Of a DNA stretch of 64,000 nucleotides, positions 10,305 to 59,488 are shown piece after piece (within the stretch, counting starts at the first letter, position 1; each line of letters starts with the position of its first letter). The notes beneath the pieces were generated by a model. It was given only the letters and a program-made list of their open reading frames with translations, searched no databases and had not been told where the DNA came from. This DNA comes from Phycisphaerae bacterium. Lineage in GTDB: Bacteria; Planctomycetota; Phycisphaerae; Phycisphaerales; UBA1924. The stretch spans positions 62,001-126,000 of the forward strand of contig JAUIHS010000001.1 in assembly GCA_030432255.1 (NCBI GenBank), written 5' to 3'. Both the position numbers and the translations under genes were made by a program.

Positions 10305-10326
10305 CGTTCGCTCTCCATTCGAGGAA

Positions 10327-23100: not shown

Positions 23101-23303
23101 TGGAGACTTCGCTGCAGTCACAGCACATCGTTCCGATGGCAATATCGCTGGGCTTCGGCATCCTCTTTGCGACGCTCGTCACACTGATACTTGTTCCTGC
23201 TCTGTACCTCGTGGTCGAGGACCTGACGAGTCTGGTCGTCGACTCAACGGATCCCGAAGCCGAGCGTGCTGGCGAAGAAGCGCCGGTCGTCCAGCCGCAA
23301 TAG
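20145..23303 (+). CDS. RND efflux permease (AcrB superfamily, Asn-containing subclass)
   Basis: 1,052 aa with the duplicated RND layout: a helix near the N-terminus ([20 protein letters not shown]), a large periplasmic loop, six helices, a second loop and six more helices. The helix-4 acidic pair is present ([17 protein letters not shown]). In helix 10 the equivalent segment reads [15 protein letters not shown], so the Lys that AcrB uses in proton relay is an Asn here, as in several SwrC-like pumps. The periplasmic start [20 protein letters not shown] is typical of export pumps. It is the last gene of the operon; the 364 bp that follow hold no supported gene. Substrate class uncertain. Confidence 0.93.
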
Positions 23304-24883: not shown

Positions 24884-25297
24884 TCAGCAGTCCGTCGCCC
24901 AGTACTCGAGTACCTCGTTCAGATCTTCGAAGTTGACCATGCCGTCGCCCGTGACGTCACCCATGGTGCCGACAGGTACGCTTGCGCCCCACGCGTTGAG
25001 GACTTCGTTCAGGTCGGTGAAGTTCACCAATCCGTCGCCCGTGGCGTCACCGGGGCAGGGCGTGGCCGTTGATGGCGGCGCGGGTATGTAGCCTGCCCGG
25101 AGCGAGTAGGATCCGCCGGTCATGGTTGCCGCATCAGGCTGGCCGATGACCATGCTCATGCCGTATGGCCCGTCAGAGGAGAATCCACCGGCATCGATCG
25201 TGGACCACGTCGTACTGTAGGTCGGCGCACCCGCCATCGCGGACGTGATGACCACACATGGGAGCAACCATGCCAATTCGCTGCGGCGCCTGATCAT
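24884..25297 (-). CDS. Small secreted GC-type dockerin protein, coupled to a giant protein
   Basis: 137 aa: signal peptide (MIRRRSELAWLLPCVVITSAMAGA), a short segment with MVIGQPDAATMTGGSYSLRA, and a two-repeat dockerin-like tail (CPGDATGDGLVNFTDLNEVL; GDVTGDGMVNFEDLNEVL) ending in Cys. It is a paralogue of the protein at 8144-8551. Its ATG overlaps the TGA of the giant protein gene (25294-25297), so translation is probably coupled and the two products may bind each other. It converges on the hydrolase gene with a 22-bp gap. Confidence 0.85.
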   Translation of the reverse strand: MIRRRSELAWLLPCVVITSAMAGAPTYSTTWSTIDAGGFSSDGPYGMSMVIGQPDAATMTGGSYSLRAGYIPAPPSTATPCPGDATGDGLVNFTDLNEVLNAWGASVPVGTMGDVTGDGMVNFEDLNEVLEYWATDC

Positions 25298-28200
25298 TGG
25301 AGGCCTCCCTTGATGGTTGCCGGATCATCGTTGTTGTTCCATGCCGGACGCCGCGTGTCCGGTCCGGGAGCGGTCTGGGCCTGGGCCGGAGCCAGGACAG
25401 TGAACGAGAACACTGCGGAGGCGCGGGAGTCACTGGGATTGAGCACCTGCATGTCGTAAACGCCGGGTCGACTGATGTCGGAATCGCTGAGGGTCACGGT
25501 CAGGTTGTATTCTGAGGCGCGCGAAGTGGTTCGTGGCTCGCCATCGAATAGGACGACAGCATCCGGTGCGAAGTTGAGTCCGTTGATCGTGACCGCATAG
25601 CTCGCGTTGATGAAGTCCTGATCGTACTGGTCCACGGTGTCGACGGTCCTCGACATGATCACCGGGTCCTCCCAGGCAATGTCGAGGATGACCGAGTTCG
25701 ACCAGCCACCACTGGGCACGTTCCCGGTGAAGTCCACGACCTCGAACCACTCCTCGTTGACATCGTCGTACTCAAGGTGGCTGTATCGCTCGAAGTACGA
25801 ACTGTCATTGGCAGGCGTATGGACGGAGATCTGGGCGCGGGTGTAGTCGGAGAGCAGTGATGCGGGCACAACCGCTTCCAGCAGCGCGGAGTCGAAGAAA
25901 TCGGTCTCCAGTGCGGTGTCGTTGAAGTAGACGACTGAGGATGCGTTGAAGTTGCCACGTTTCTCCGACTCCAGGTTCCATGTGGTGCCACCCACAGTGG
26001 TCGAGAGTCGCGGCACGTTGATCGGCCCCTTCACGAGGATGCGGAAATCTGATGCCGTGGCTGATGAGTCCGGCCGAATGATGTCCGGTGAGATCGATGT
26101 CACACGTGGAATCGGGGCGCCGACGTTCAGATTCATCCTCTGACTCAATCCGCCGCCCGGTCCGGGATTCTGCAACTGGAACGTCAGAACGCCCGGCTCG
26201 TCATAATCTTCCTCGCGAAGCGTGACATTCAGCAGGCCATTCTCCACGGATTGAGCGTACCTGGCTGTTGGGCTGCCGCTGACGATGACCGCAGGCATGG
26301 CGGGACGCGCATTGAAGTCCCAGTTCGGGAAGTAGTTCGCGGCGGTCGTCCCCTGGATGTTCGCTGTGTCCCATAGAGACTCGTAGATCTCCCAGTAGTC
26401 GCGCCGGGCGATGAAGGTGTCGAAGTTGCCGAGCGGGTCGAGCCCATCGAGCACTGCCGCGGGAAGTTCAGTGCCCAGTGTCGGATCGGCCGCCCAGGGA
26501 TTGGGATTGACGGTCTCGAGGTTGGGACGCGGGTAGTTGACGTCGAACCCGACCGTGTTGGACGTGCCGAGGTCACTCTCGACTCGGATCCGAGCCTCCC
26601 CAGGAATCGTCAGAAAGCGCCGGGGCACTTCGATCAGCATCGCGGTGCTGTTGATGAGTTCGTGCTGGAGGATCTCATCGCGACCCTTGTGGGCCAGGTG
26701 CACCTCGATGTTGGAGCCCTGCACGAACCGACGACCGTAGAGGACCATCCGCTCCACGCCGTTCATCAGGTTGGAGAAGTTGGCTGGGAGTGGGGGAGAG
26801 GTCTGGTCGTAGATGATCATGGCGCTGGACTCACGGCTCGCACCGATGATCAGGGGATCGTTGCTCTCGGCAAAGTTGATGACCACACCTTCGAGCTTCT
26901 TATCCGGGATATCGATATTGAATGTCTTGTACTCCCGGGCGGGGGGACTTCCGCCGGGTGGGACCAGGTCAAAGCGAGGCGTCGGGAAGATCTGAATGTA
27001 GACGTCAATGCCTTCCTCGTAACAGCGTTCGCAGACGTCGAGATCGATGATGTTGGAATCGCCGGCACCCGCGGCGACTGCCATGGCAATGGTTTCCCAG
27101 CCGACAGACCCCTTGAAGCGCAGCGCGGTGTAGTTCTTGAATGTGGCATTGGCCTTGATGACGGGCGTAACGTGGATGGATGTCAGTCCTTCAGGCGTCG
27201 AGATGCAGAGCGGCTGCCCGGGCTCGACTTCGTAGGTGGCGATTGGATTCGCCTGGCCGGCGGTCTCGCGGATTTCGTACTTGACCGAAGGCCTGAACTC
27301 GGTGATCAGTTCCTGGAGTCCGAACATCTCGCTCTGCACATAGAGCTGTGCAATCGACCCGGTATAGCCGAGGCGGAAGAGAGAGGTCGCGATACCCTCG
27401 CAGACAAAGGTCGGGGTGCTGAGGAGTGTGGTGGAGAGGATATTGGTGAGATTGGCTCGCACCGACATGAACTTCTCCTGCCGATCCGATCTGACGATGT
27501 CCGGATCCATGGCGGGCAGTGTGATCGTGCAGCCGTCGTCGGGAAGGCAGTCGCACTCGGTGTAGGAGCGATCAGCCTCGTTGAAGTCCGAGTCGGTCAC
27601 GAATGTCGGAATGCGCATCGTGCCGGTGACGAAGTTCATGGGATCACTGAGCGCAACCCATTCACCCTGGGCCACGCTGTAGACGCTGGTGAACCAGCCG
27701 AGATTGAGGAACGGAACAGGCAGCGGGCCGGTTTCCGGCGTGGAGTAGTTGAGAAAGTTGAATGTGTCGCTCCCACCAAGAACGCACAGGTCCAGGCCGA
27801 AGCCGACGTTCACGGAGAGTTCGCCAGTCAGGCCTGCGCTGAGCATCGGCAATGTCTGGGCGGTCATGCCGTTGGAGTTGTCGGCATCGAAAAACGTTGC
27901 TGCCGGGAAATATAATTGTGGTTCGGCAGGTTCGGTGGGGAGAATCTCCTCCTGACCCGGGAAGATGATTTCAACGTCGCCGCGATAGTCCACGTCAACC
28001 TGTCCGCCGGTGATCGCGGCCTGGAGTCCGCTCTCGAGGAACGCCTTGTTGGGCTCCTGCGAGTGATTCCCGGTGGGCCCGGCATCGAGACGGAGGGTGT
28101 AGCCGCCACTGGTGCAGTTTCCGCCACTGATGTCGTTGACCGGATCGTTCCAGGTCTCCTTGAAGAGTCTGTAGTAGATGTCCGGTTCCTTGAAGTTCGG

Positions 28201-29925
28201 TCCCCAGATACTGCGGTTGTAGAGGCTGAAGTCGACGCTGTCGGTGATGATGGTGGGCACGGACTCGAAGAGTTGGTCGTAGCGGAGGACCACGTGCTGA
28301 GCAGTGTCGACCCCGAAGTTGTCGTACTTGCTCAGTCCGACGAAGGCGTTGCCTCCCGCGTCAACCACCAGGTCGTTGAGTTTGCGCGACTGGTCCCAGA
28401 TGCCGCCGTCGCCCAGTTGGTACTCGCAGGACCAGACGGGTGCATTGGGGCTGGGAGCGCTGGAGTCCTTGATCTTGTCGTACTTCAGCGTCAACACGCG
28501 GCTGTTGCTCACCTTGCGAGCGAGCACGAAGGCATTGCCGAACCGTCCCACGGCGAGGTTGGAGGGCGCATGATTGCCCTTGGTGCGTGACCAGTCCCGG
28601 GTGCCGTCGGCGAGGATCCGGACGAGGCGGAAGCCGGAGTTGCCGTTGTCCTGGGTCAGCGTGTAGACGTTCCCATCGATGTCCACAGCGGTATCGATGG
28701 GGAATCCGTCGCTGGTCACCGTATCGCGCCACAGCTCTTCGCCGGTGATGGCATCGAATTTGATGGTCAGACCATTGCTGGAGGAGTCATCATCATCGGT
28801 GAGAATGATGACGTTGCCATCGAAGTCCACTTCCAGGTCGGCGAGATCTGCGGCGCCGGTGACGTCGGTTGACCAGAGCAGCGATCCGTCAAAGGGATCG
28901 AGGCTCTCCACCTTGAAGGTTGGTGCACCCACGAGTTCGAACCCTGTCTCGCGGGCGAGTAGAAGACGGTCGCTGCGGTCTGTCCGGATCTCGACGTGCT
29001 GGTGAGATGGGATGTCACCGCTCACTTCAACTTCGAACGTCTTCGACCACTTCAGGTCGCCGCCGAACAGCGGATCGGCATCGGGATCGATCTGGGCAAC
29101 CAGGGTGTCGCCGTCCCACTGCCGGTAGCAGATGTAGACGAGGCCGCCCGGCGACACCTCGACCTGCATTTGAGTGATGTCACGCACGTTGGGAAGTTCG
29201 TCATAGATTCGAATCCAGCTCCGGGCCGCCGAGGTGCCTCCGCTGCTGGTCACCATGCTGTAGCGAACCAGGAATGGTGTGGTGTTGGTGCGTTGCAGTC
29301 CGAACCCGATCTCACCCGGTGCGTAGTCGATGAAGCCGAAGGCGAAGACCCGGCCGGTGGCATCGGTCTCAACTTCGATGAACTTGAGCGTATCGTCGAT
29401 GTCCCAGGGATCACCCTGCGGGTTCAGTCCCGGAAGATCGTCATAGCGGATCACATCCTGCCATTGCTTCGCATCCGACCAGGTCTGATCGTTTGCGCCC
29501 TGCACCCCGATGACGAAGGCCCTCGCTGCGCCTGTGCTCGCCTGATCCCATCGCCCGGCGACAATCAGGTTGCCCAGGGGATCGGTTTCGAGATCGGCAA
29601 TCTCGTTGAGGGCATTGCCCGTCGCGGTGCCATCAAAGTCCGGATCGAGGCCCCATGACAGGTTCACAAGGTTGGTACCGTCGGCCCGCAACTGGTCTGG
29701 CCCGACTGCAACGTCGTGCCACTGCGACTGTGTTCCCTGCGAGATCTCGTCCCAGCCGATCACCTTGCGCAACTCACGCCGAAAATCCTGCGCCTCGATG
29801 AACTGATCGATGGCCGGAGAGGGACGGGCGGAGGGTTGCGGCAGATCGACTTCTGCCCCTCCGGAGGAGACGAACATTCCGATCGCAGCGGGGAAGACGA
29901 GTAAGCGAGTCTTCAGGGTATTCAT
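25294..29925 (-). CDS. Giant secreted propeller and IPT-like repeat protein (paralogue B)
   Basis: 1,543 aa with a signal peptide (MNTLKTRLLVFPAAIGMFVS). Residues about 60-550 are beta-propeller-like blades with SBBP/PQQ-type phrases (DPLGNLIVAGRWDQAS, DIDGNVYTLTQDNGNSG). Residues about 560-1,020 form a conserved middle region of unknown fold. From about 1,030 the shared signature SAMIIYDQTSP opens a chain of IPT/TIG-like Ig domains (PNLETVNPNPWAADPTLG, VSGSPTARYAQSVENGL, NPGPGGGLSQRMNLNVGAPI). Paralogues lie at 32318-36718, 40172-44791 and, truncated, 52071-53741. It sits 35 bp after a tail-fibre-like gene and is coupled to a dockerin gene. No catalytic residues were recognised. Probably a surface structural or binding protein. 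Confidence 0.8.
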   Translation of the reverse strand: MNTLKTRLLVFPAAIGMFVSSGGAEVDLPQPSARPSPAIDQFIEAQDFRRELRKVIGWDEISQGTQSQWHDVAVGPDQLRADGTNLVNLSWGLDPDFDGTATGNALNEIADLETDPLGNLIVAGRWDQASTGAARAFVIGVQGANDQTWSDAKQWQDVIRYDDLPGLNPQGDPWDIDDTLKFIEVETDATGRVFAFGFIDYAPGEIGFGLQRTNTTPFLVRYSMVTSSGGTSAARSWIRIYDELPNVRDITQMQVEVSPGGLVYICYRQWDGDTLVAQIDPDADPLFGGDLKWSKTFEVEVSGDIPSHQHVEIRTDRSDRLLLARETGFELVGAPTFKVESLDPFDGSLLWSTDVTGAADLADLEVDFDGNVIILTDDDDSSSNGLTIKFDAITGEELWRDTVTSDGFPIDTAVDIDGNVYTLTQDNGNSGFRLVRILADGTRDWSRTKGNHAPSNLAVGRFGNAFVLARKVSNSRVLTLKYDKIKDSSAPSPNAPVWSCEYQLGDGGIWDQSRKLNDLVVDAGGNAFVGLSKYDNFGVDTAQHVVLRYDQLFESVPTIITDSVDFSLYNRSIWGPNFKEPDIYYRLFKETWNDPVNDISGGNCTSGGYTLRLDAGPTGNHSQEPNKAFLESGLQAAITGGQVDVDYRGDVEIIFPGQEEILPTEPAEPQLYFPAATFFDADNSNGMTAQTLPMLSAGLTGELSVNVGFGLDLCVLGGSDTFNFLNYSTPETGPLPVPFLNLGWFTSVYSVAQGEWVALSDPMNFVTGTMRIPTFVTDSDFNEADRSYTECDCLPDDGCTITLPAMDPDIVRSDRQEKFMSVRANLTNILSTTLLSTPTFVCEGIATSLFRLGYTGSIAQLYVQSEMFGLQELITEFRPSVKYEIRETAGQANPIATYEVEPGQPLCISTPEGLTSIHVTPVIKANATFKNYTALRFKGSVGWETIAMAVAAGAGDSNIIDLDVCERCYEEGIDVYIQIFPTPRFDLVPPGGSPPAREYKTFNIDIPDKKLEGVVINFAESNDPLIIGASRESSAMIIYDQTSPPLPANFSNLMNGVERMVLYGRRFVQGSNIEVHLAHKGRDEILQHELINSTAMLIEVPRRFLTIPGEARIRVESDLGTSNTVGFDVNYPRPNLETVNPNPWAADPTLGTELPAAVLDGLDPLGNFDTFIARRDYWEIYESLWDTANIQGTTAANYFPNWDFNARPAMPAVIVSGSPTARYAQSVENGLLNVTLREEDYDEPGVLTFQLQNPGPGGGLSQRMNLNVGAPIPRVTSISPDIIRPDSSATASDFRILVKGPINVPRLSTTVGGTTWNLESEKRGNFNASSVVYFNDTALETDFFDSALLEAVVPASLLSDYTRAQISVHTPANDSSYFERYSHLEYDDVNEEWFEVVDFTGNVPSGGWSNSVILDIAWEDPVIMSRTVDTVDQYDQDFINASYAVTINGLNFAPDAVVLFDGEPRTTSRASEYNLTVTLSDSDISRPGVYDMQVLNPSDSRASAVFSFTVLAPAQAQTAPGPDTRRPAWNNNDDPATIKGGLQ

Positions 29926-29960
29926 GGCGGTACGCTCCAGTGCGGGCGTCGGTATGGCGC

Positions 29961-32012: not shown

Positions 32013-32122
32013 GTCAACTCTCCATATCCGTTCGGACGGGGTATTCCGCCCAAGGGAACTCGAAGAAGGGGGGAGCGAGGCGCAATGGAACGTCGGAGAT
32101 TCTCCATATTCAACATGCTGCC

Positions 32123-32278
32123 TGCCGCTGAGGGCTTGCGGCACAGCTAAGCTGAGTCAGCAGGGCAACTTAGGGTCGGCAACGTTCGTTTGGCGTGCGC
32201 ATGCAGGGGCGTGCGTGAGGGTCTTCCGCTGAATCCGATCAGATGTGCATTGATTCGGTGTCCCCCAGCGATTAGCGT
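32123..32278. promoter_or_regulatory. Divergent regulatory region between two surface-protein operons
   Basis: The 305-bp gap 32013-32317 has no gene. It contains an inverted repeat TGCCGC/GCGGCA (32123-32143), an odd palindrome GCTGAGTCAGC (32151-32161), and a weak promoter for the rightward gene: TTGATT (32250-32255), 17-bp spacer, TAGCGT (32273-32278). Placement fits shared control of both cassettes. Confidence 0.3.
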
Positions 32279-32317
32279 GATTGCAGTTCATTCCCGGGGA
32301 ATCAAGCGGAGCATGCG

Positions 32318-35300
32318 ATGAGATTGATTGTTGTGTTGTGCAGGGTCCTGATGGCGATCTTCGTGTTGCTGTGGGGGCAGGGCGATCTCGTGGGCCAGAC
32401 GGTCGAGCAGCATCCTGAGCCGGCGCCGGGAGAGACCGCGGAAGCCTACGCGGATCGAGTCTTCGATCTCTATGGTCCGAAACGGCAGGCCGAAGACGAG
32501 GACCGAACTGCGGCGGTCAAGCATGCGTGGTCGTGGCTGGATCCCTCCTGGCAAGTCGGGCAGTTCCAGTTCATGGAATCCGCGGGGATCGACATTGAAG
32601 GCAACGTCATCTTCACCGGACGGACGGTCGAGTTCAGTCCGGATATCGAGACGGCGCGTGTGCTCAAGGTCGATGCAGCTCCGGATAATGCGTTGATCCA
32701 GGTTTATGACCAGGACCTGCCATTCCTCGACCGGATGACTCTTGCCAGCAGAGGTGCGGGCTTTGATCAGGATGGGTTTCTGTATGCGCTTGCTGATGAC
32801 CACGTTCTGTCAGCCGGCCCGGCGGCGGTCGTGCGCATTGCACCTGCCGGGTTTGTGCAGTGGCTCTCCCGACTCGAGCCGTTCGGAAGCAATTACGGTG
32901 CTCAGATTCTCGTTGATGACGAAGGTGTCCCGTACGCCGTGGTCAATCGCACGATCTACCAGTTGGACCCCGAGTCTGGGGGCGTCCTCTGGTCGACCGA
33001 GTTGCCGTCAATGGGGGTGGGTGGACCTGTGTTGGCGGGGATCGAAACCGTGGTGATGGGTGAGGGTGTCATCTTCGCGCTTCTGCATCGCATCGACACT
33101 TTTGAGGATCCCGCGAATCAGCGCACATCGGTCCTCTTCCGACTGGATGCGCGAACCGGCGAGATTCAGTGGCAGCAGAGCATCGAGGAGGCCTCCGGAG
33201 CGATCGGCGGTGGATTCCGGCTCCTGCTTGACGATCTCGGCAGACCGCTCCTCGCAGGAATTGACACCACTTACACGGCCGCGCTCTGGCGCTTCGATAC
33301 CGATGGGAACCTCCTGCAGACCGTCACCCTTCCGAGGACTCCCCAGGCGCTGTCCTCACAGGTCAGCGATATCGTGCGCAGCGATGAATCGGGCGATACG
33401 TTCGTGGTCGTGGATGAGATTCGGGAGGATTCAAGGGGCGGTGTCGAGCATGAATGGACCATCGTCCAACTCGACGCTGATCTCGCGGAGGTGAGCCGCA
33501 GAAGCTTCGGGCAGGAGCAGCCGGAGGAGCTGCAGACTGATCGACTCGGTAATCTCTATGCGGCATTCACATCGGAGTTCGATACTGTTTTCCTGCGTGT
33601 CGCGAAGTTCGATCCGACAAATGACCTTGCGGTGGTCTGGTCCGCGCCGCGCGAAGGGAACGTGTTCCGCCTCACCTCCATGGACGTTGATCGCGGCGGC
33701 CAGATCTTCATCGCCGGCTTTGCGAGCGGCAACGGATCCCAGTTGCGGATGGACAAGTACGATCAGGCCTACCTCGCCGTGCCGCAGACTGCCCGCGACT
33801 GTGTCAGTGTGCGAATCGAAGATCGCAGCATCTGGGCGGATGGCGTCGGGAGGCTCGAAGAGTCGGACACCTTCTTCGACGAGTCCTGGAATGAGAATCT
33901 GAGCGCCAAGGCGTGCGTTCACATTCCCATCCCGTTCACGGACGGGATCGACTTCGGTGGTGGTGTTGGCGTTCGGACCAGTGGTGCCATCGAGATGGGG
34001 TACAAGGCGGAGGTCGATGGCGGCACGCTGGATGTGCACCTGCCCATGGACATCGAGTGGTCCATCATCGACACCACGGGCAAGCCACCGGCAGACGGGA
34101 CGACCGTTCGGGTGACGCCCACATGGAATGCTGATCCTGCGGCAAGAATGACCAGTTGCTTTCAGCCGACCTTCAACGCTGGGCTGACGGCGGGTGTTGA
34201 GTTCAACCTGTACGTGGACATCAGCATGAAGTTCATCGTGCCGCTGTTTGATGCCGTGTTGCTCGACACCGGCTTTAACTGGCCCGAAGACTACATTCCG
34301 TTCAGCGAGACGCTGGATTACATTCCGTACCTGAACCTGCTCGACATTCTCGTCTACCTGGGGTTCCCTGACACGGGAGAGTGGCATACCGAGAGTGATG
34401 CTCAGGGGTTCTTCGAGATCGGCATGGGGATTCCGAAGCTTGTCGCTGAGAGTGGTTTCACACCGACGCTGGCGCCCGATGGACTGTCGGCGACCGGTGG
34501 CATGTTCAGCACGACTGCCTCCGATCGATTCCTCAACCTGACGGCGTACATCAGTGAAATCATCCATGCCATTGCCGATGACCTTTCACCCTACCCGCTG
34601 CCGCCGATTTCCGGGACCATCGGAACCGACGGCAGTCTCAGCTTCCTGCTGAGTTACCGCGTACTCCAGTTGCAGGCGCTCTGCAATTTCCTCGCTGAAC
34701 AGAACATCGACGTCGATGTGCAGCCTCGCGTCCGTTACGTGCTGTCCACCGGTCAGGAGTTCGACCTTGAACTCGAAGACCCGTTCGAGTTCGTCATGTC
34801 GGAGTCCCACATCTCGATCACACCATACGTCTACGCCCGGATGTCCTTCTGTAACGACACCGACGTCCTGATCGTGCCCGGCGTGGCATGGGAGACGGCG
34901 GCCTTCGATGTCGCGGCGTCGTTCCAGGGCAACAACCTCTTCTCGTTCGGAAACTGCTTCCTGTGCTATTCGACGGACTTTGGATCGGCGGGGTTGGATA
35001 TCTACAACAACGACTGGGTCTATGACTCCCCGCAGATCGAACTGGCACCGATCCGTATCGAGTCCAGCGGCAGCAGCGCACCGAGACTCAGTTCGGCCAG
35101 TCGGACGAGACTCACCATGCTCATCTACGAGCAGCGCTCACCATCGGTCAACGAGTTCAACCTGGATGTCAATCAGACAACGCCCATGCTTCTCTTCGGG
35201 ACAAGAATGGCACCGGGGTCGCAGGTCTGGATCTCAATGCATGGCCGGGAGGAAGTCCTGCCCACCACAGTCGTGAACAACGGGACGATCCTCGTCCGGG

Positions 35301-36718: not shown

Positions 36719-39700
36719 TGTTCCGCGCTGCCATGACGACCGTGGTGCTGCTCGGCGTGACCTCGGCCGGGGCCGAGCCGATTCCCACGCCACACGTTCG
36801 GCCTGCTGATGGGTACCCATTGCCGGCGCCGCAGACGGCGCGCGGTGGTGGGCAGATCGTCCAGTCATTCACTTTCTCGAGCGAGACTGACGGGATCACG
36901 TGCCTGGTCACCATGACGGGTGAGGACCTGGATGGTGATGGCGTGATCATGGGCAGCGGCGGCTACTATGCCCCGCCCAGTGCTGAGGTCATCGATCTGT
37001 ACGTCACCTTTTGGGAAGCCGGTGCGCGGGCCGCGGCGTATGACAACGCGAATGTGGATACGTTCGACTACCCCTACTTCTACTTTGAGTGGCCGTTGGG
37101 TGCAGATGCTCCCACGTCGTGGGATATCGGCGCGGATCCGGGGTGGTATTCGTTCGGCGGGCCCGCCGTAACCCCCTCTCCGGGAGCGTGGTTCTTCGAT
37201 TCCTCGACATTCTCCGGTGGGCTGTTCTCGTCGCTCGAGCGGTCTGATCCGCTCTTCGTCGCCAGTATTGGAAGCGTCGAACGCACGCTGACCGTGAGCG
37301 CCGTTGCCGATGGAATGGATGAGCTTCCCGGCGATCCACCAGATTGCATCATCCTCTGCACCGACTTTCAGTCAGACACAATCGACTTCAATGACGATGG
37401 GCGCTGGGAAGCGGAAGTGAGCGCTTTCGCGGCGTGCGGCTCCTGCGACTTCGGGACCGCAGATGCCGTCCTGACGGTGGATTCTGTGGTCGACAATGAC
37501 TACATCGCGGCGCGGGGTCGGAGTGTCGTTGGCACTTCAGGCCCGGGCAGTGGGACGGGCCAGTTTCAGACGGTCGCTGAACTCGAGTGTGACGAACTTG
37601 CCGTTGTGACTTTCGATCTGGTAGGTGTGTCGTCCGGCTCATTGATCACGCTGACAGGGCCTGGTAGCAGCCAGACCATTCCACCCGGGGTGAAGTCCGA
37701 GCGCCTTCTTGAACCGGGGGATTACACACTGGATCTGCGGGTCCATGTCGGGGGGAACGGGATATTCTCCTATGCCGTGCACATCGGGTTGCCGCCGATC
37801 CTCCGCGAAGACCGGCAACGGGGCTATGAGACGATCCAGGCCGCGATTGACGACGGGCCGGGGGCCTATCTCCTGCTCGGACCCGGGACCTACATCGAGA
37901 GCCTCGTGGCGAATGCGGAGCAGCAGACACTGTACCTGCAAGGGTCTGCGGGGGCTGAGTGGACCGTTCTCGAGCCACCGAGTTTCGGTGGACTGCTGTC
38001 CCTGACAGGGGTGTCCGCTCAGTTGCAAGGGGTCTGCTTACGAGACGGCCAGACGTTGGTCGTCGCTTCGGCCGCAGATCTGCAGGTTGACGCGTGCATC
38101 TTTGAACTGTTCGTGGATGGTGCGATCAATGCCGACGAGTCGTCGCTCCAGATCAAAGACTGCATATTCAGGGCTGGATCAACGCTCTTCACAGCGATTC
38201 CCGTGATCTCGAGCACCCAGCCGGCGGATCCGCACTTCACCATCACCAACAGTCTGTTTCACGACATCACAGGCACCATTGGCATGCCGATTCTCGGCCT
38301 TGAGGACATGACATCCGCAGATGTTCTGAACTGTACGTTCGCCGACAACGTCGCGAAAGAAGGCAGTGCAATTCGTTATAGCGCGGATGCCACGATCAAC
38401 GTCTCCAACTGCATCTTCTGGAACGAGTTTCTCAATCCGTTTGACGGACCGATGCCGCCGAACGTGCAGTACTCGATCCTGCCGGGCGGGACCGGAACGA
38501 ACATTGATGCGGATCCGCTGTTCAGGAATGCGAGCGGAGAGGACTACCGTCTGTCGCGCGGATCGCCCGCCATTGATGCTGGCGACAACTCCGTGTGGCC
38601 CAGCGTGTCACCCTTTACCCGGGATGTCCTCGGGCAGACACGATTCATGGACGACTTCTACACGCCGGACACAGGTGCTGGTGTGCGACCGGTCGTCGAC
38701 ATCGGGGCCACTGAGTATCAGGGCGATCTGCTCTTCGTCCCGGATGACCATGCCACCATTCAGGCGGCCATTGACGCTGCTGAGGACGGTCAGTCGGTCG
38801 TGATTCGATGGGGACTGTATCGCGAACTCGTGAATCTGCGGGGCAAGGCGATCGCACTGCGATCGGAAGATCCAGCGAGTCCGTTCTATTCCGAGGGGAC
38901 GACCATATTCGGCGATCTCGACCTGGATGATCTGGGTGACGGGACCGTGGTCTCCTGCGTATCCGGTGAAGGGCCCACGACGCTGATCGACGGCCTGACG
39001 ATCCGGCGTGGCAGCGGCACCTTCGGAGGTGGCATGCGCATCGCGTCCAGCGGGCCGATCATTCGTCGCTGCCGCTTCGTCGAGAACGTAGGCGACTTCG
39101 GCGCTGCTGTCAGCCAGTCGGACTCGAGTGCATACTTCGAGTCATGTACGTTCTTCGACAACACCTCAACGACTTCGAACGGTGGGGGCGCGGCGTGGAA
39201 TGAGAACAGCACACCCACGTTTACCAACTGTCTGATCCATGACAACACGGTCGGTGGCAGCGGTGCAGCGTTCACAGACATCAATTCCAATCCCACACTC
39301 ATCGGCTGCACGATCGCCGACAACTCTGGCGGGCTGGGAGCCATCTTTGACTTTGGCAATTCCTCCGCCACCGTGATCAACACGATCCTGTGGAATCCGG
39401 CGAGTAATTCAGAGATCTTTTCGGGTGCGATGCCGCCAACCGTGGCATACTCACTGATTCGCGGCGGGGCCGCGGGTCCCGGTAACGTCTCCGGTGATCC
39501 GCAGTTCACCGGAGGCTTCCGGCCGTACCAACTGGACATGGACTCTCCGGCCATCGATGCGGGAGACAATTCTGCAGCACCTCCGGAGGTCACGATCGAC
39601 TTGTCAGGGCAGCCACGCTTCAGGAATGACACGTTCGTGCCGGATTCTGGATCAGGGACAGCTCCGATTATCGATATCGGTGCGTACGAGAGGCAACCGA

Positions 39701-39885
39701 CGTTCAATCCCGCATGTCGCGCTGATATCAACGGGAGCGGCGTGGTCGACTTCACCGACTTGAATGAAATCCTCGACCATTGGGGCGAGTCGTCCCCGGC
39801 CCCGGGCGACATCGACTTCAGCGGCGTCGTTGACTTTGGAGACCTCAACGAACTGCTCGATCACTGGGCCGAGATCTGCCAGTGA
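36718..39885 (+). CDS. Secreted right-handed beta-helix protein with GC-type dockerin
   Basis: 1,055 aa with a signal peptide (MFRAAMTTVVLLGVTSAGA). The first 360 residues form an N-terminal beta-rich region with a choice-of-anchor-like segment. Two beta-helix units then begin with YETIQAAIDDGPGAYLLLGPGTY (positions about 37830-37890) and DHATIQAAIDAAEDGQSVVI. Each ends with the family phrase SPAIDAGDNS. The C-terminus is a dockerin-like pair starting CRADINGSGVVDFTDLNEIL; the usual CPGD is CRAD here, and the second loop is IDFSGVVDFGDLNELL. Beta-helix proteins of this type are pectate-lyase-like in fold, but no lyase active site was recognised, so binding or structure is as likely as catalysis. 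It is coupled to giant protein D. Confidence 0.82.
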   Translation: MFRAAMTTVVLLGVTSAGAEPIPTPHVRPADGYPLPAPQTARGGGQIVQSFTFSSETDGITCLVTMTGEDLDGDGVIMGSGGYYAPPSAEVIDLYVTFWEAGARAAAYDNANVDTFDYPYFYFEWPLGADAPTSWDIGADPGWYSFGGPAVTPSPGAWFFDSSTFSGGLFSSLERSDPLFVASIGSVERTLTVSAVADGMDELPGDPPDCIILCTDFQSDTIDFNDDGRWEAEVSAFAACGSCDFGTADAVLTVDSVVDNDYIAARGRSVVGTSGPGSGTGQFQTVAELECDELAVVTFDLVGVSSGSLITLTGPGSSQTIPPGVKSERLLEPGDYTLDLRVHVGGNGIFSYAVHIGLPPILREDRQRGYETIQAAIDDGPGAYLLLGPGTYIESLVANAEQQTLYLQGSAGAEWTVLEPPSFGGLLSLTGVSAQLQGVCLRDGQTLVVASAADLQVDACIFELFVDGAINADESSLQIKDCIFRAGSTLFTAIPVISSTQPADPHFTITNSLFHDITGTIGMPILGLEDMTSADVLNCTFADNVAKEGSAIRYSADATINVSNCIFWNEFLNPFDGPMPPNVQYSILPGGTGTNIDADPLFRNASGEDYRLSRGSPAIDAGDNSVWPSVSPFTRDVLGQTRFMDDFYTPDTGAGVRPVVDIGATEYQGDLLFVPDDHATIQAAIDAAEDGQSVVIRWGLYRELVNLRGKAIALRSEDPASPFYSEGTTIFGDLDLDDLGDGTVVSCVSGEGPTTLIDGLTIRRGSGTFGGGMRIASSGPIIRRCRFVENVGDFGAAVSQSDSSAYFESCTFFDNTSTTSNGGGAAWNENSTPTFTNCLIHDNTVGGSGAAFTDINSNPTLIGCTIADNSGGLGAIFDFGNSSATVINTILWNPASNSEIFSGAMPPTVAYSLIRGGAAGPGNVSGDPQFTGGFRPYQLDMDSPAIDAGDNSAAPPEVTIDLSGQPRFRNDTFVPDSGSGTAPIIDIGAYERQPTFNPACRADINGSGVVDFTDLNEILDHWGESSPAPGDIDFSGVVDFGDLNELLDHWAEICQ

Positions 39886-40171
39886 GGAACAGGCGATCGT
39901 TCGCCTGGCCGCCTATCTGCTCTTGAATGCCATTCTGCGGGAGCGGCCGCGTCCGGCGCATTCGAGTGCCGACACTGAGACATGGCTCTTGATGTCCGAG
40001 ACTGTGCAGGAAACGTTGGGGTCGATGCCTTCGATCTCATCACTCGCGACGTTGTGGACGGCGAGGGCGTTCCAGTCGGCCCCGGCATGTCGGCGAGGCG
40101 ATGCGGGGGTTGCCGGAATGCGCACGCCACCTGGCAGATGAGTGGCACCCGTGTCTCAGGGTTACCCGGCG

Positions 40172-43100
40172 CTACTGGCTGTGGTGCGGAGTGATCGTGG
40201 CCTCGCGATTGATGGGCGGCGTCTTCGTCACGCCGGGCGCCGGTGCCGGGGGTGGCTGGGTGACAAGGAATTCGGCTCCCTGCGAGGTGGCTCCGTTGAA
40301 GTTGCGTACCCTGATCTGTGTGATCCTGGGGCTGAGCACGTCCTCCGGCATCAGGGTGGCTTCGAGCATGCTGTGGCTGACGAAGTTGGTCGGCCGATCC
40401 TCTCCACCGATCTGCACCACCGACGTCGAGCGGAAGTTCTCGCCACACACCGTCAGGTTGTACTGCTGCGTTCCCATGTCGAACGCGACGTTTCCGGCCA
40501 CGGTCGAGTTCGGGCTGAGCATCGTGATGACGGGGTCGCGATACCGGGACCGGAACAGGAGGGCGCCGGACTCGCCTCCACTTGAGACCAGTCCCTGGAA
40601 CACGATCTCGTCGTCACCGTTCCTCAACTCTTCAAAGTAGGACGTTCCGTTCGCGGGCGTGAAGACAGAGACCGTGTGGTTCCGTTCCTGCCCATTAATC
40701 AGGCTCGCGGGAACCATCGTGCGAAGTTCAGCAGAACCGACGAACGTTGTCGGAAGATCCATGCCATTGAAGCGGATGACGCTGGCGCGATTGAAGTTGC
40801 CGTACTTGGGCTCTTCGTAGCCTGACCAGAATGGAACGTGCTTCGGCCCGCGAACGATGAGTTCGAAGTCGTCGGTATCCGGTTCGACTTCCCGTGGTTC
40901 GATACTGCTGACGGCCGGACGAGGAGCCGCGATCGTCAAGTCGAGCGTATTGCCCATCCCACCACCGGGGCCCGGGTTGCACAGTACAACGGGAATCAGG
41001 CGGGGTGTGTTGTAGTCAGCTTCGGCAAGGCGAACGTTGTGGATGCCATTGTCGACCGGTTGGGCGTATCGCTCCATCGGGCTGCCGTTGAAGAGCACGG
41101 CTGGGAAGGCGGGCATCGCATCAAAGTCGAAGCACGGGAAGTATCCGGGAGCACTGATGCCTCCGGTGCCCTCAAACTCCAGCGACCAGCCGACGAGTGC
41201 GCCCATGTCCTGTCCTGCATTGTCACTCACCTCGATCGTCCACGTTCCGGATCGGTCCATGCCGTCGAACGCGCTCAGCGGGTTGTTCGGAACGTAGCTC
41301 GGAGGGCTGATCACGCCGCTTGGGCTGTCCACATCTTCGATCAGGCCGCCGTCTCCCTCATCATCCAGGATGATGTTGAGACCGTTGTTGTCAAAGCCGA
41401 AGCCGCTGCCGGAGTAGCCCGGTCGATCGACGACCGTGACGGTGGTGCCGCCATGGCTGAGGCGAACGATCAGGTCGCCGTTCCAGGTGTGATTGATGAC
41501 GAGGCGCAGGTTCATGTCGGTGATCGTTCCGCCATCGACAATCTCCATGGTGTCGGCAATGAAAGCGCCGGTGCCGTCCGGAATGGAGTCGGATGCTGAT
41601 GATGTGTACGTGGGGTTTCCGGGTGCCGTACTCGGATTCCAGAGATCCTCGCGCATCTTGATGTAGTAGTCACGCCTCGCAATGAACGTGTCATTTCCGA
41701 TACTGGTCTGCCGATCGATCACGGCGACCGGGAGGGTGTTCATGTCCGGGTCCGCCGACCACAGGTTGGGGTTGACCGCATCGAGCAGTGGCGTGGGGTA
41801 GGTAATCGGCATGTCGATGGAGTCCGAGATCCCGAAGGAAGACTCGACCCAGAGCTTGGCGACTCCCGGGAGGAGCCTGAAGCGATTCGGAATCTCCACG
41901 AGCAGCGTCTGGTTGTTGATCCATGTCGTCGGGAGGCATTCGGTCCGTCCGTGGTGCTTGATCACCGCTTCGCTGGAATCGAAGAGGCGATCGCCGAAGA
42001 TGAGCATGCGCGAGCCGCCGCGGGTGGAGACGTTGAACTTGGACTGCGTCGGCGACGTCTGGTCATAGATGATCATGCTCAGGTTGTCGCGGCTGGCCGC
42101 GAAGACGCGGGGCTGGACATCAGTGCTGCCCGTCAGGCGCATCGGTGCGAGTTCAACCTCGGGGAAGAGGAGGGGCCACCCCGCGTTGAAAATGTCAATA
42201 TTGAACGTGACCAGTTCTTCGTCGATGCAGAGCAGGCATTCGCTGAGGCCGACGAGGCGCCAGCCGTCAAAGTCAGCCGCGACGGAGAACTCAATGGTGT
42301 TGAATCCCGCGGTGGGAGACAGCGTCATGTCCGTGTCGTTGTCGAACGTTGCAGTTGCGTAAGCGAAAGGCGTGATCTCGAGCGTGCCGTCTGGCGGCAT
42401 CACGACGCCGGAGATCGGTTCGCCGAGAGCAAGGTCCAGGTCCGGGAGGCCATCGGAGAATTCGTAGCGAACTCGCGGCGTGACTTCGACCGTCAGCGTC
42501 TGATCGGCACCGAGGTTGACGCCGAACAGGGCCTGTGCGAACGCGACGGAGAGGGCGGCATAGAACGTATCATCCTCGTCACCGAGGACCTGCTCATAGG
42601 TCGCGGTGAAGCCGAAGGCTTTGAGGATGGCCTGTGTCAGACTCAGCCGCAGTTTGAGGAAGTCAGCCTCGACGTTGGTCTGGAAGCTGTTGGTGGTCGG
42701 GTTGAAGTTGGCCTTGGCAGAGAGCTTGGGGAAACGGACGCTCCCGGTGAAGATGCCGTTGGAGTCGGCGACCGTGAACCACTCGCCGGGTGCGGGGAAA
42801 CCGAACTGCCCGAGGAGTCCCAGCACGTGCAACGGTGGGATATAGTCCGGAGGCGACACATCCCAGTCGGTATCGACCAGGGTCAGGTCAAGAATCTCAG
42901 CGCTGAATGCAGTCAGTTTCAGGTCGGCGTAGACCTCTCCGTCGGTCTCGGCCGTCAGGCCGGCATCCACCGTTGGCGTCGCGTTGGATGTCATGCGCGC
43001 TGCGGGATCGGGGTCCCAGTCGGTGGGAATGTCCGGGATGACCACGCCGGCGAAGAGCTTGGTGAAGGGCGGGATCAGGAACTGTGTGCCCATCGGGAAG

Positions 43101-44791
43101 TTGAAGTCCGCCGAGCCGCCGTTGACCTCGGCTTTGTAGCCAAGCGTCATTTCACCATTCGCGCGCAGACGCGGCCCGCCGCCGAATTCACCGACGGGAG
43201 TGATGAAGAAGTCCTGCAGCGGAATGCTGTTGGTGTCGAAGTCCCAGGATGGGACTTCCCAGATCACGCCCTCTTCCTCGATGGAGCCCACTCCCGGGGC
43301 CCACACGCCCTGGTTCTCAAGCATCAGGTTGGGGCATGCGGTCTGGAGGATCGGTATGCCGAGGAAGGGCTGCGTGTACTTGGTCACGATCACCCTGTTG
43401 GGTTCCTCGGAGGAGCCGACCAGGTAGAGGCTCATTCCGTTGTCCACCACGACATCGACGGCGAAGAACTCATCCAGCCCTGAGCGAGTGTCCTGCCAGA
43501 TGGTTGCGCCCGGGTCCGAACCCAGTTCGCCGATGTCAATCTTCGCGATGTACTGGTCAGCACCGGATTCGGTGTGCACGTAGACGTTACCAATTCGATC
43601 CACGGCCGCCTTGCTTGAAGACCCCTCATTGCCGGTCGGGCCGTCCCACTCCCACATCTTCGTTCCGGAGCGGTCCCATGACTGGACAAAGGTGCCGGTC
43701 GGATTGACAGCGCCGGCAACGATGATGTCCTGCGCACGTGAGATCTCCACGTTGCCGACACCGGACGCCGCACCGGGCTGAAGATCACGTGAGAAATTCG
43801 GAGTGCCGTCCGGACTGATGGAGATGAGAAAGCTGTTCTGAGAAAACGTGCCGCGCCCACCCACCACGTACACATTACCGTCACGATCCGTCTCGATGTC
43901 ACGCGGGAACCACGCTTCATCACTCGCACTCTCCCACGTCCACTCGATGAGGCCGGTATCAGGTTGCAGGCGAGAGATGTACAGGCGGTCGGCATTGCCC
44001 ATGAAGACGCGAACGTACGCGGCGTAGACCGCCCCCGTACGAGACACGGCGAGGATGGAGTAGGTATCGACGTCTTCAATGAGGTCAACCGACCATGCCT
44101 CGGCCCCTGTCACAGGGTCGAGTCGGGTCACGCGGCCGAAATCAAGGTTACCCAGCGAGAAGTACGGGACTCCCTCCGGATCAAGTTCAAGGTCGTTCAG
44201 GAACGGTGTCGAAGTCGCGAAGACAGGTGAGGACTCCCACAACACGGCACCGTTGTCTGCTCTGAGCTTGACCACACCGGCAGACTCGGTGTTTCCAGGG
44301 AGATCAAGCAGGCCACCGACATAGATTCCGCCATTCAGATCCGCCCGCACGGACTCGACTGTGAGCATGGACGGAATATTGATGCTCCAGATGGCGTTCG
44401 GGCCATCGTTGTTGGCGACCTCGAGTTTCTCGACCTGAACCCCGAGGAAAAAGCCCTTCTGGTACGCAATGATCAGGTTGCCTTCGAGGTCGACAAACTG
44501 TTTCGACGTGAAGTTGATGTCGTAGTCCCACCGGCGATTGAAGAGGGGGATGCCGCGACTCTGCTCGGACTCCGCTGGAACCGTACCGTTCCGATAGAGG
44601 TCCATCATGCGATTGGCATAGGCTTCGGCAGTCTCGCCGGGTTGCGGGCCCGATGCATCCACCTGTGTGATCGGCTTGCGCTCCGGCTCTCCGATGGCAC
44701 GCGTCGTCTGTCCGCAGACCGGAATCGCTGTCAGTGCGACAAACAGGAGTCCGGCGGTCATTCTTGTAACTGTGAGGGGCAGGTTGATCAC
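40172..44791 (-). CDS. Giant secreted propeller and IPT-like protein with inserted P-domain (paralogue C)
   Basis: 1,539 aa with a signal peptide (MINLPLTVTRMTAGLLFVAL). It has the same plan as paralogues B and D: PGETAEAYANRMMDLYRNG near the start, blade repeats (DRDGNVYVVGGRGTFSQN), a middle region from NQGVWAPGVGSIEEEG, then SMIIYDQTSPTQSKFN and Ig-like domains. The unusual part is a proprotein-convertase-type P-domain of about 150 residues (about 1,060-1,210). It has NHTWNGDLIVRL, RPGYSGSGFGFDNNGL and SGTWTIEVSDNAGQDMGALV, and lies between FIARRDYYIKMREDLW and YFPCFDFDAMPAFPAV, which are nearly adjacent in the paralogues. No subtilisin domain is present. The start overlaps the upstream gene stop (ATGA). 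No dockerin gene follows; the next gene is convergent. Confidence 0.82.
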   Translation of the reverse strand: MINLPLTVTRMTAGLLFVALTAIPVCGQTTRAIGEPERKPITQVDASGPQPGETAEAYANRMMDLYRNGTVPAESEQSRGIPLFNRRWDYDINFTSKQFVDLEGNLIIAYQKGFFLGVQVEKLEVANNDGPNAIWSINIPSMLTVESVRADLNGGIYVGGLLDLPGNTESAGVVKLRADNGAVLWESSPVFATSTPFLNDLELDPEGVPYFSLGNLDFGRVTRLDPVTGAEAWSVDLIEDVDTYSILAVSRTGAVYAAYVRVFMGNADRLYISRLQPDTGLIEWTWESASDEAWFPRDIETDRDGNVYVVGGRGTFSQNSFLISISPDGTPNFSRDLQPGAASGVGNVEISRAQDIIVAGAVNPTGTFVQSWDRSGTKMWEWDGPTGNEGSSSKAAVDRIGNVYVHTESGADQYIAKIDIGELGSDPGATIWQDTRSGLDEFFAVDVVVDNGMSLYLVGSSEEPNRVIVTKYTQPFLGIPILQTACPNLMLENQGVWAPGVGSIEEEGVIWEVPSWDFDTNSIPLQDFFITPVGEFGGGPRLRANGEMTLGYKAEVNGGSADFNFPMGTQFLIPPFTKLFAGVVIPDIPTDWDPDPAARMTSNATPTVDAGLTAETDGEVYADLKLTAFSAEILDLTLVDTDWDVSPPDYIPPLHVLGLLGQFGFPAPGEWFTVADSNGIFTGSVRFPKLSAKANFNPTTNSFQTNVEADFLKLRLSLTQAILKAFGFTATYEQVLGDEDDTFYAALSVAFAQALFGVNLGADQTLTVEVTPRVRYEFSDGLPDLDLALGEPISGVVMPPDGTLEITPFAYATATFDNDTDMTLSPTAGFNTIEFSVAADFDGWRLVGLSECLLCIDEELVTFNIDIFNAGWPLLFPEVELAPMRLTGSTDVQPRVFAASRDNLSMIIYDQTSPTQSKFNVSTRGGSRMLIFGDRLFDSSEAVIKHHGRTECLPTTWINNQTLLVEIPNRFRLLPGVAKLWVESSFGISDSIDMPITYPTPLLDAVNPNLWSADPDMNTLPVAVIDRQTSIGNDTFIARRDYYIKMREDLWNPSTAPGNPTYTSSASDSIPDGTGAFIADTMEIVDGGTITDMNLRLVINHTWNGDLIVRLSHGGTTVTVVDRPGYSGSGFGFDNNGLNIILDDEGDGGLIEDVDSPSGVISPPSYVPNNPLSAFDGMDRSGTWTIEVSDNAGQDMGALVGWSLEFEGTGGISAPGYFPCFDFDAMPAFPAVLFNGSPMERYAQPVDNGIHNVRLAEADYNTPRLIPVVLCNPGPGGGMGNTLDLTIAAPRPAVSSIEPREVEPDTDDFELIVRGPKHVPFWSGYEEPKYGNFNRASVIRFNGMDLPTTFVGSAELRTMVPASLINGQERNHTVSVFTPANGTSYFEELRNGDDEIVFQGLVSSGGESGALLFRSRYRDPVITMLSPNSTVAGNVAFDMGTQQYNLTVCGENFRSTSVVQIGGEDRPTNFVSHSMLEATLMPEDVLSPRITQIRVRNFNGATSQGAEFLVTQPPPAPAPGVTKTPPINREATITPHHSQ

Positions 44792-46632: not shown

Positions 46633-46672
46633 GTGCAATGGTCTCAAGAGTGGGGCGTGCCAGGGAATGTGC

Positions 46673-48592
46673 TCATTCATCCACGGTCTCAGTGGTAGCG
46701 GGATGATTGTGGATCCGCTTGCTCTCCGGCTGACCGTAGAGTTGCGGCATCAGGTAGAGCCCGCGTTCAGCGGGGCCCTTGTGCATTTCAACAGGGGCGC
46801 CCATCTGCTGAACGAAGCGGTCATTCCTTCTGGCCTTGACTTCCCACGACACCTTCATGCCGGGCATGCCGCCGGCAATCGTGAAGACGCCGTGTTCGAT
46901 CTCGGAGGCGATGTGCAGGAGTGGCGCGGGACCGCCGATCGCGGTGAGCTGATACCGGAAGTCCGCGTTGATCAATTCGAAGTAGTCAGGAAGCCTGACC
47001 GCGGCTTCGCCATCTGCATTCAACTGCACAACGCCGTTGTAGACGTTCTGAGGTTCGGGAGATTCCAGGCTGTAATGCAGGAGGTACTTCTCTTCCGGGT
47101 CAGCCGGGTGATCGATCATGAACGTCTTGGTGCCGGAGGCGCCAATTCTTCCCGCGGCAAAGACGCCGTACGCTGCCGGGCTCGATCCCGAAGCGCCGAA
47201 GACGCCATAGTTCGGGTTGCCTGAACCGGTTGCTTCTCCGTACACGCCGTAGCCCGAGTTGACCTTGCCATGGACGCCGACGCTGGCACCGGAGCCCGTG
47301 TTCTCCGCATGAATCGCCGTGCTGTTAGCGCTGAACGACCTTACATCGAGGCGAGCTGTGGGTGCGGTGGTCCCGATGCCCACTCTTCCGTTCCCTTTCC
47401 AGGTCATGATGCTGCCAAGGCCGCCAATGTTCGTGGCCAGAGATATGAAATTCTCACCGTCCACGGGAGTGAACCCGCTGCTGAACCAGAAGCTCAGGCT
47501 GGGTCCTTCTCCAAAGCCGAGCATCGGGACACCGTCGGCGCTTCCGACATTCTCAATCGACAGCAGCGCATCCGGGTCGAGTGATCGAATGCCGACACGT
47601 CCGCCGTCGGGCTGAAGCAGGAGATCGACAGGCTGGAGCATGTCATAGTCATAGCCGGCAATGACGGGCAGGCCGAGTGAGCCTTCGTTCCACAGTCGCA
47701 GCCCCGATCCCGCGCCGACCGGCAGGTTGCCGCCGCCGTTGCCACTGAGCCAGAGCGCACCGTCCTGAATGTGCATGGCGGCAGCGGGATCGGTCGTTCC
47801 GACGCCTACGTTTCCATCAAACCCGATGGTGACCTGGGCGGGGAACTGGTTGCCCAGCGAAAGTGCGCCGGTCTGCTCCAGCGCGACCGTGCTCCCGATG
47901 GTCTGGCCCATCTCTCCAACACCAATGAGTCGAAGCGTGACGCCGCCCACATCGCTGACGAACTGGCTGATCAGCTGGTTCCCGGTGCCCGGATTCGGAC
48001 CGATGTCGCGGACTCGAAACGACCCCCCGAGCGATCCGACGATCTCAAACAGGTCGTCCGGATCCGTGGTCCCGATGCCGACGTTGCCACCGGAGAAGAA
48101 CGCTTCGTTGCTCAGATTGAGCGAGAACGCACCGTCGTCCACGCCGTCCGCAAACCCTGCCGGCTTGTTGAGGACGCCGCTCCAGTCCACGGCTTCCGTC
48201 ATCAGCGAGAACTGTGAGGAGGGGGCCGGATGGAGGGGCTGCCGCGGCGAGAGTGTCGTATAGGGGCCGGTACCATCCGGCCTGACGTCGACCTCGAGCC
48301 ACCGGGCGGCGCCGACGAACTCAGGGCCGAAGTCCAGTTCAACAGTGAACAGGCCGTCGGTGATCGCGATGTTCGGTACGACGATCTGAGACCCTCGCTG
48401 CGTCCCTCCAGTGACTTCGTCATAAAGACGGAAACGCACATCATAGACGCCCTCGGTAGCCGCACCGGACTCTCTGAGCTGCCCCTGGTAGGTGAACGCG
48501 GTGCCCTCCGGTACGACGCCTGCATCCAATACTGCAGAAAACAACAACACGCCAGCGGATACCACAGTGCGGGGCCAGCCGTTCAAAAACAT
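46673..48592 (-). CDS. Secreted tail-fibre-like protein, YQG family (cassette C, first copy)
   Basis: 639 aa; GAGGATG ribosome site 7 nt before ATG 48592; signal peptide MFLNGWPRTVVSAGVLLFSA. The N-terminal domain shows AFTYQGQLRESGAATEG, RFRLYDEVTGGTQRGSQ and LSPRQPLHPAPSSQF. The stalk region has NVGIGTTDPDDLFEIVG, NVGVGTTDPAAAMHIQDG and GYGVYGEATGSGNPNYGVFG. The conserved C-terminal head has KTFMIDHPADPEEKYLLHYS and MKVSWEVKARRNDRFVQQMG. It heads the three-gene operon that ends with giant protein C. Its pairing with a second copy suggests a hetero-oligomeric stalk or recent duplication. Confidence 0.78.
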   Translation of the reverse strand: MFLNGWPRTVVSAGVLLFSAVLDAGVVPEGTAFTYQGQLRESGAATEGVYDVRFRLYDEVTGGTQRGSQIVVPNIAITDGLFTVELDFGPEFVGAARWLEVDVRPDGTGPYTTLSPRQPLHPAPSSQFSLMTEAVDWSGVLNKPAGFADGVDDGAFSLNLSNEAFFSGGNVGIGTTDPDDLFEIVGSLGGSFRVRDIGPNPGTGNQLISQFVSDVGGVTLRLIGVGEMGQTIGSTVALEQTGALSLGNQFPAQVTIGFDGNVGVGTTDPAAAMHIQDGALWLSGNGGGNLPVGAGSGLRLWNEGSLGLPVIAGYDYDMLQPVDLLLQPDGGRVGIRSLDPDALLSIENVGSADGVPMLGFGEGPSLSFWFSSGFTPVDGENFISLATNIGGLGSIMTWKGNGRVGIGTTAPTARLDVRSFSANSTAIHAENTGSGASVGVHGKVNSGYGVYGEATGSGNPNYGVFGASGSSPAAYGVFAAGRIGASGTKTFMIDHPADPEEKYLLHYSLESPEPQNVYNGVVQLNADGEAAVRLPDYFELINADFRYQLTAIGGPAPLLHIASEIEHGVFTIAGGMPGMKVSWEVKARRNDRFVQQMGAPVEMHKGPAERGLYLMPQLYGQPESKRIHNHPATTETVDE

Positions 48593-55675: not shown

Positions 55676-55835
55676 GAATGTCAGTGCCAATCCGAATTGA
55701 GCGCCCGCGCAGAAGCTGATTGGCAATAGCCGAATCACGATGCGACAATTGGCACTGCAGGAGGGCAGCGCATCTCCGCGGAGTTCAGCGTCGTGCTACC
55801 GAATCACTGTGATGGTGCGACTGCGGACGGGCCGC

Positions 55836-56351: not shown

Positions 56352-56540
56352 TCAGGTCCGGACGCCCTGAAACTTCGCGATGTCGCGCCCACTACGCGCA
56401 TCCAGGCTCGGGCAGGACCATTATTCTCGGTCAATGCTGATACAGGCATCCGGTGCGTGGGACCACTGGAACGTCCTTTCGACCTCGTTGCGACCAACTT
56501 CGACGTGAACTCATCTTCTGACGAGTCAATTGGGCTTTGA
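56352..56540 (+). pseudogene. 3' fragment of an unidentified gene, possibly SUMF1-like
   Basis: The plus frame from 56352 to the TGA at 56538-56540 has no start of its own and abuts the truncated FG-GAP gene head to head. It reads LRDVAPTTRIQARAGPLF and NADTGIRCVGPLERPFD. The GIRCV phrase recalls the C-terminus of formylglycine-generating enzyme-like (SUMF1) proteins, but the match is weak. Confidence 0.3.
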
Positions 56541-59313: not shown

Positions 59314-59488
59314 CTCAAACGCCGCACATCCATCTCCACGGTGCCTGATCGGTCACACTTGCCCTGAGGACGCGCACGCCCCCGCGTGTGGTGACCCGGG
59401 GGCCCCGAAAGAGTACGGTGCATGATCGCAGCGCGCGCGGTATTCTCATGCGAGTTGCGAAGTCGGCGGATCTCACGGAGATGTGGCA

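Follow-up and report, generated by a model that had tools for sequence, protein, structure and literature searches.

A recurrent cassette of fibre-like, giant and dockerin genes in planctomycetes and its possible role as a surface appendage

Many secreted dockerin proteins and giant proteins in planctomycetes have no known partners; the genome studied here alone gives 147 dockerin hits. The window analysed, 64,000 nucleotides long (positions 62001-126000 of contig C12 in genome G000, an assembly of 4.54 Mb in 122 contigs), carries several copies of a giant gene, most of them adjoining genes for fibre-like or dockerin proteins. Do these neighbouring genes encode partners of one extracellular structure, or is their adjacency incidental? 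The nearest giant-bearing relatives of the window genome are labelled Phycisphaerales or Phycisphaerae, and the cassette was followed through genomes of the same family.

Giant-protein cassettes in the window

The central cluster comprises the following genes.

24884..25297 (-): SD protein of cassette B, 137 aa, secreted; third gene; Pfam Dockerin_1 E 3.9e-5
25294..29925 (-): giant B, 1543 aa; PQQ_2 and TIG; NF058597 109.6 bits
29961..32012 (-): YQG protein of cassette B, 683 aa; alignments show a YQG domain at the N-terminus, a shaft and a conserved domain at the C-terminus
32318..36718 (+): giant C, type II, 1466 aa; NF058597 100.1 bits; same-strand YQG gene absent upstream
36718..39885 (+): beta-helix dockerin protein, secreted; Beta_helix E 1.3e-14; choice_anch_Q; C-terminal GC-type dockerin_GC
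40172..44791 (-): giant D, 1539 aa; TIG and P_proprotein; NF058597 116.6 bits
44788..46632 (-): YQG protein 2 of cassette D; C-terminal domain 297 bits; GTGA overlap with giant D
46673..48592 (-): YQG protein 1 of cassette D, 639 aa; structure predicted
52071..53945 (-): fourth giant copy, 5'-truncated, C-terminal half only; NF058597 94.6 bits

Giants B, C and D had been annotated as full-length paralogues, and this was borne out: the open reading frames are present, their mutual full-length identity is 29-31%, and all match NF058597 (CoaZ_rpt_PGGG), which scores 95-117 bits in the four window copies against a curated cut-off of 30. Judged from sequence, the three are one family, built from a PQQ-like propeller, a long-stranded beta region and CoaZ/PGGG-IPT repeats; at the N-terminus they match PQQ_2 or similar propeller repeats with varying strength, and at the C-terminus TIG/IPT. 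The landmark motifs said to be shared are less uniform than described. NPGPGGG is present in all three giants, whereas the others occur but are not letter-identical, one reading VNPNPWAADP, VNPNLWAADP or VNPNLWSADP, and another YFPNWDF in giant B and YFPCFDF in the other two.

A model of giant C residues 447-1466 (mean pLDDT 71.6, pTM 0.59) predicts very long antiparallel strands in the middle region (up to 36-39 residues) and IPT-like sandwiches at the C-terminus. Foldseek and PDB sequence searches gave no convincing solved-structure match for the middle region, Foldseek returning mainly generic strings of Ig-like domains. In giant D, a proprotein-convertase P-domain is inserted before YFPCFDF; in four giants of relatives (L012, L014, L017 and L018), some 200 aa are inserted near the same position.

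The full-length giants carry no recognisable anchor, and among the window copies only the truncated fourth has one. This copy, missed by the initial annotation together with its dockerin and with the SD gene 8144-8551 (-), is 38% identical to giant B over residues 1174-1518 and continues on the same chain into another beta domain and a dockerin-like C-terminus of its own, ending ..CPGDANGDNLVDFEDLNIVLGAWDTEC. Within 52071-55675 the giant fragment (-) and a beta-helix dockerin gene (+) lie head to head near 53700-53750; the latter seemingly lacks its 5' part too, and the arrangement resembles a deletion or rearrangement junction. Beyond the window copies, a search of the 4.54 Mb of this genome found no giant.

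The proposed start/stop overlaps were all confirmed from the sequence: ATGA joins giant B to the SD gene 24884-25297, GTGA joins the YQG gene 44788-46680 to giant D, and TGATG joins giant C to the beta-helix gene. The tandem YQG genes of cassette D overlap only if the start at 46680 is used, and the start at 46632, which we prefer and which a signal-peptide-like stretch follows, leaves a gap. Two giants are indeed preceded by YQG genes (29961-32012 before giant B; 44788-46632 and 46673-48592 before giant D). The geometry of the annotated layout was thus correct, but its giant letters were inconsistent with its own listing order. RND-type efflux operons, recognised by eye from translations, flank the surface-protein cluster at 17447-23303 and 59483-63783.

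Giant C stands apart. A beta-helix dockerin gene adjoins it, as annotated, but this is a different pairing, without a YQG gene of its own, that recurs only at locus L009 of genome G092. After each of these two giants comes a large protein, and the two large proteins share an N-terminal domain (38% identity along 178 aa, E 5e-25), the one at L009 being cut by the contig end; the type II pairing rests on these two loci. Type II was rejected as a clade, since the tree does not resolve giant C and the L009 giant as sisters.

Elsewhere in the window, the minus-strand run 11562-5459 had been described as keeping the same order with a different middle protein, and a YQG-middle-SD cassette was identified within it.

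10327..11562 (-): YQG protein, 411 aa; different C-terminus; YQG N-domain E 8e-43
8583..10373 (-): middle protein, true start near 10305; has a related counterpart in the middle of the YQG-X-SD locus L172
8144..8551 (-): SD protein, 135 aa; SD domain E 1.2e-10; Dockerin_1 E 3e-4; closes the cassette

The middle protein is 25% identical to its L172 counterpart over 515 columns (E 6e-28).

YQG proteins and their shafts

An export signal followed by a beta-rich domain opens the YQG protein, as read from a hydrophobic N-terminus by eye and an all-beta model of residues 31-120. The AlphaFold2 model of 46673-48592 gives two beta domains with confidence, at residues 31-120 and about 490-630; the shaft between them has low confidence. 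In a Foldseek search with this model, Bd2133 of Bdellovibrio (8OND) and the DUF3823 protein 4FXT had the best E-values, 4FXT having the higher match probability of the two, and further fibres and tailspikes came next; these fold matches are partial and have low TM-scores. Matches in BFVD were phage tail and tail-fibre proteins, and the shaft sequence matched tail-fibre families in PHROGs and, weakly, PDB 8OJN (E 0.04). PDB sequence searches with the YQG C-domain, the YQG N-domain and the giant returned nothing usable. A scan that used the published MAT consensus in a relaxed version counted 35 capping-loop-like motifs in YQG sequences versus 2.5 in shuffled ones.

The shaft appears to be replaceable. 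Collagen triple-helix repeats occupy it in 10 of 32 YQG proteins, and RCC1 repeats form a third kind in one protein (L019:6359-9100, whose sequence shows the repeat pattern; Pfam E 1.7e-41 for one member of the set). The label 'tail-fibre-like' suits the shaft, but among solved proteins the bacterial MAT adhesins come closest, and in several relatives the shaft is collagen instead. The natural reading of models and matches is that the YQG protein is a MAT-adhesin-like fibre, probably trimeric given the collagen shafts.

In the window genome the YQG family is less common than dockerins, 13 stretches matching one YQG protein used as query. The C-terminal domain occurs in only three genes, all within this cluster, so the other YQG genes, such as 10327-11562, end differently. 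Alignment shows that the C-terminal tip is conserved among giant-linked YQG proteins. Across the family, 60 of 150 genomes contain YQG C-domains, in most cases with no giant, which indicates that the fibre does not depend on one. One giant-bearing genome, G134 (L019, L051), has 37 YQG N-domain matches compared with 2-24 in the others searched.

Linkage of giant, YQG and SD genes in related genomes

We searched 163 genomes of the same family for giants, together with an order sample (400) and a phylum sample (392) that overlap each other and the family sample. Giants, either full-length or partial but long, are present in 16 of the 163; outside the family, the order and phylum samples gave no full-length giants and only propeller similarity at E 1e-30. 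All cassette homologues with a named source come from metagenome bins, and HMM-guided gene calling was used for the genes around the relatives' giants, including small ones.

The initial annotation's reading would be undermined if giants elsewhere usually lay without YQG or dockerin neighbours; the opposite was found. A YQG gene with the same C-terminal domain lies directly upstream on the same strand in 15 of the 17 giants whose upstream gene is known, with gaps of -4 to 72 bp in the 14 measurable cases. The G015 contig opens with a fragment of the YQG C-domain, and the G025 giant is split, its first part ending one contig and the remainder lying on another. The two exceptions are giant C and the L009 giant. 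This linkage holds across giants whose identity to giant D is mostly 28-43%. The giant and YQG trees are congruent (distance correlation r 0.63, matched by 0 of 20,000 permutations, P 5e-5), and shared species history may be part of the agreement. Giant B and its YQG protein fall near the same relatives in both trees, with cassette D placed elsewhere; the giant tree has long deep branches and several unresolved forks, and the YQG alignment has gappy rows. After the giants of L006, L011 and L015, a sigma-factor-like gene and then a Ser/Thr kinase-like gene follow in conserved order, as seen by eye.

The third partner required more care. Dockerin_GC has 147 matches in the window genome, so adjacency to a dockerin is weak evidence; a generic dockerin neighbour was rejected as evidence for the cassette, and the analysis was redone with the SD domain stripped of its dockerin. 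SD proteins are small and secreted (about 130-160 aa). That of cassette B combines a short 'DAGG..GQPDA..GGxYxL' domain with a C-terminal GC-type dockerin, which scores 27.9 bits in the protein scan and 29.2 in the genome scan (NF041540, cut-off 29); eight SD proteins scanned against this model all matched it, four at 36-52 bits and four more weakly, under the 29-bit cut-off. A 140-aa frame at 55836-56258 (-) scores 30.7 bits for dockerin_GC, above the cut-off; the ORF 55740-56540 (+), which it overlaps, is probably not a gene.

Searching 15 genomes with the non-dockerin domain alone gave 40 matches. An SD gene lies beside 10 of the 15 YQG-preceded giants, two by weak matches. It follows the giant in L007, L012, L017, L018, L054 and G025 (weak, E 1.2e-4) as well as giant B, and in L011, L015 and L006 (this last weak, E 7.5e-4) it adjoins the YQG gene in divergent orientation; it is missing or distant in cassette D, L008, L014 and L019. 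Within 180 bp downstream of a giant there are 7 SD matches in the 15 genomes, compared with 0.03 expected within 1 kb, and 27 of the 40 lie within 8 kb of a YQG gene against 1.9 expected; the expected counts assume even placement in the genome and are approximate, and the SD profile, built partly from giant-linked copies, may favour such copies. Many SD-YQG pairs occur without a giant or with a different middle protein, in both orders. The dockerin member proposed for the cassette therefore stands as the recurring SD-dockerin protein, not as any dockerin gene.

Taken together, the cassette is an undescribed operon built from known domain types, marked by conserved order, close spacing, congruent trees and a common domain make-up. 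With gene order conserved and trees matching, three families that are poorly annotated become an assembly that can be put to the test.

Proposed assembly and comparison with known systems

Since the same genes are kept together in the same order in relatives, their products probably cooperate outside the cell. We favour, at a probability of about 0.55, a conserved surface-protein operon whose products assemble into one outer-surface appendage, adhesive or substrate-binding in function. The YQG gene would supply an exported, probably homotrimeric fibre with the YQG N-domain, a replaceable shaft (tail-fibre-like or collagen) and the conserved C-domain. The next gene would supply the giant, with its propeller, long-stranded beta region and IPT-like stalk, and the SD gene, where present, a GC-type dockerin acting as a retention tag. 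Co-expressed and exported, the three would meet at the outer surface, where the SD protein may fix the base, the fibre may give reach and the giant may serve as functional head or platform. Such contacts, like trimerisation, surface location and the adhesive role, are inferred. More speculatively, and with considerable doubt, the YQG N-domain might dock on the giant or on the dockerin-bearing SD protein; the operon would then supply the missing receptor side of MAT-like fibres, and these planctomycetes would display modular fibres whose shafts, heads and dockerin base are exchanged.

It is possible that the operon merely co-regulates secreted proteins that act independently, linked for joint expression and transfer without forming a complex. 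YQG and SD genes each occur without a giant, the membership of the cassette varies, and the sporadic presence of giants (16 of 163 genomes) would fit transfer as a unit. Tight spacing, repeated coupling overlaps and partner trees that stay congruent across great divergence nevertheless argue for closer cooperation, as does the fourth copy, in which giant and dockerin form a single chain. That adjacency is functionally meaningless, a plain vertical retention of one ancestral cassette, is very improbable: the giants are all related by descent and our sample shows them in a single family, but divergence is high, flanking genes differ between loci, and SD-YQG pairs exist independently of giants in both orders.

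The dockerins could also be taken to plug into a cohesin scaffold, as in the cellulosome-like 'planctosome', for which a cohesin-dockerin model was proposed in freshwater planctomycetes (PMC6461901); the dockerin-type I/EF-hand repeats of the SD and beta-helix proteins would suit it. We consider this improbable. Despite 147 dockerin_GC matches, the window genome gave no cohesin match (PF00963) at E 0.01 and the 15 genomes none above cut-off, making a cellulosome-type scaffold unlikely, and NCBIfam naming, a curator's reading, treats GC-type dockerins as anchors (NF041540). That the cassette is what remains of a phage or tailocin, and the YQG proteins are true tail fibres, is scarcely credible: the PHROGs and BFVD tail-fibre matches are set against signal-peptide-like N-termini on all partners, collagen shafts and main window ORFs among which no other phage-like gene was noticed.

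The surface appendage that we favour resembles several described systems in part. With the 'planctosome' it shares a planctomycete host, secretion, dockerins and P-domains, but it has no cohesin above cut-off and no peptidase in the cassette. The CoaZ_rpt_PGGG repeat of choice-of-anchor Z proteins (NF058597) is common to all four window giants, to which the full-length giants add the propeller and long-stranded region while having no recognisable anchor; among the papers listed for 'choice-of-anchor', judged by title or abstract start, none concerned planctomycetes. The SD and beta-helix partners end in the domain of GC-type dockerin proteins (NF041540) or a diverged form of it, but unlike other such proteins they are tied to a recurrent fibre/giant operon; a literature search found no paper using the phrase 'GC-type dockerin'. 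The collagen-like adhesins Lcl, SclA and SclB have a collagen shaft, as do 10 of 32 YQG proteins; the likeness is that of the repeat, the YQG N- and C-domains lying outside the models of those families.

The closest parallel is the MAT family of Bdellovibrio bacteriovorus (PMC10769870; PDB 8OND, 8OML), whose PDB entries found here cover C-terminal parts. As far as the available text of that report describes them, MAT and YQG proteins are alike in being exported fibres whose signal peptide is followed by a beta-rich domain, and in having a tail-fibre-like shaft, capping-loop-like VGIGTxxPxxxL motifs and interchangeable parts. YQG proteins differ in their recurrent giant and dockerin operon partners, in the collagen shafts of some members and in their C-terminal domain. 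In the same text, the surface element bound by the MAT N-domain is said to await identification, and gene partners are not named. Should the MAT and YQG N-domains turn out to be homologous, the pairing of SD with YQG would point to a concrete candidate for that element.
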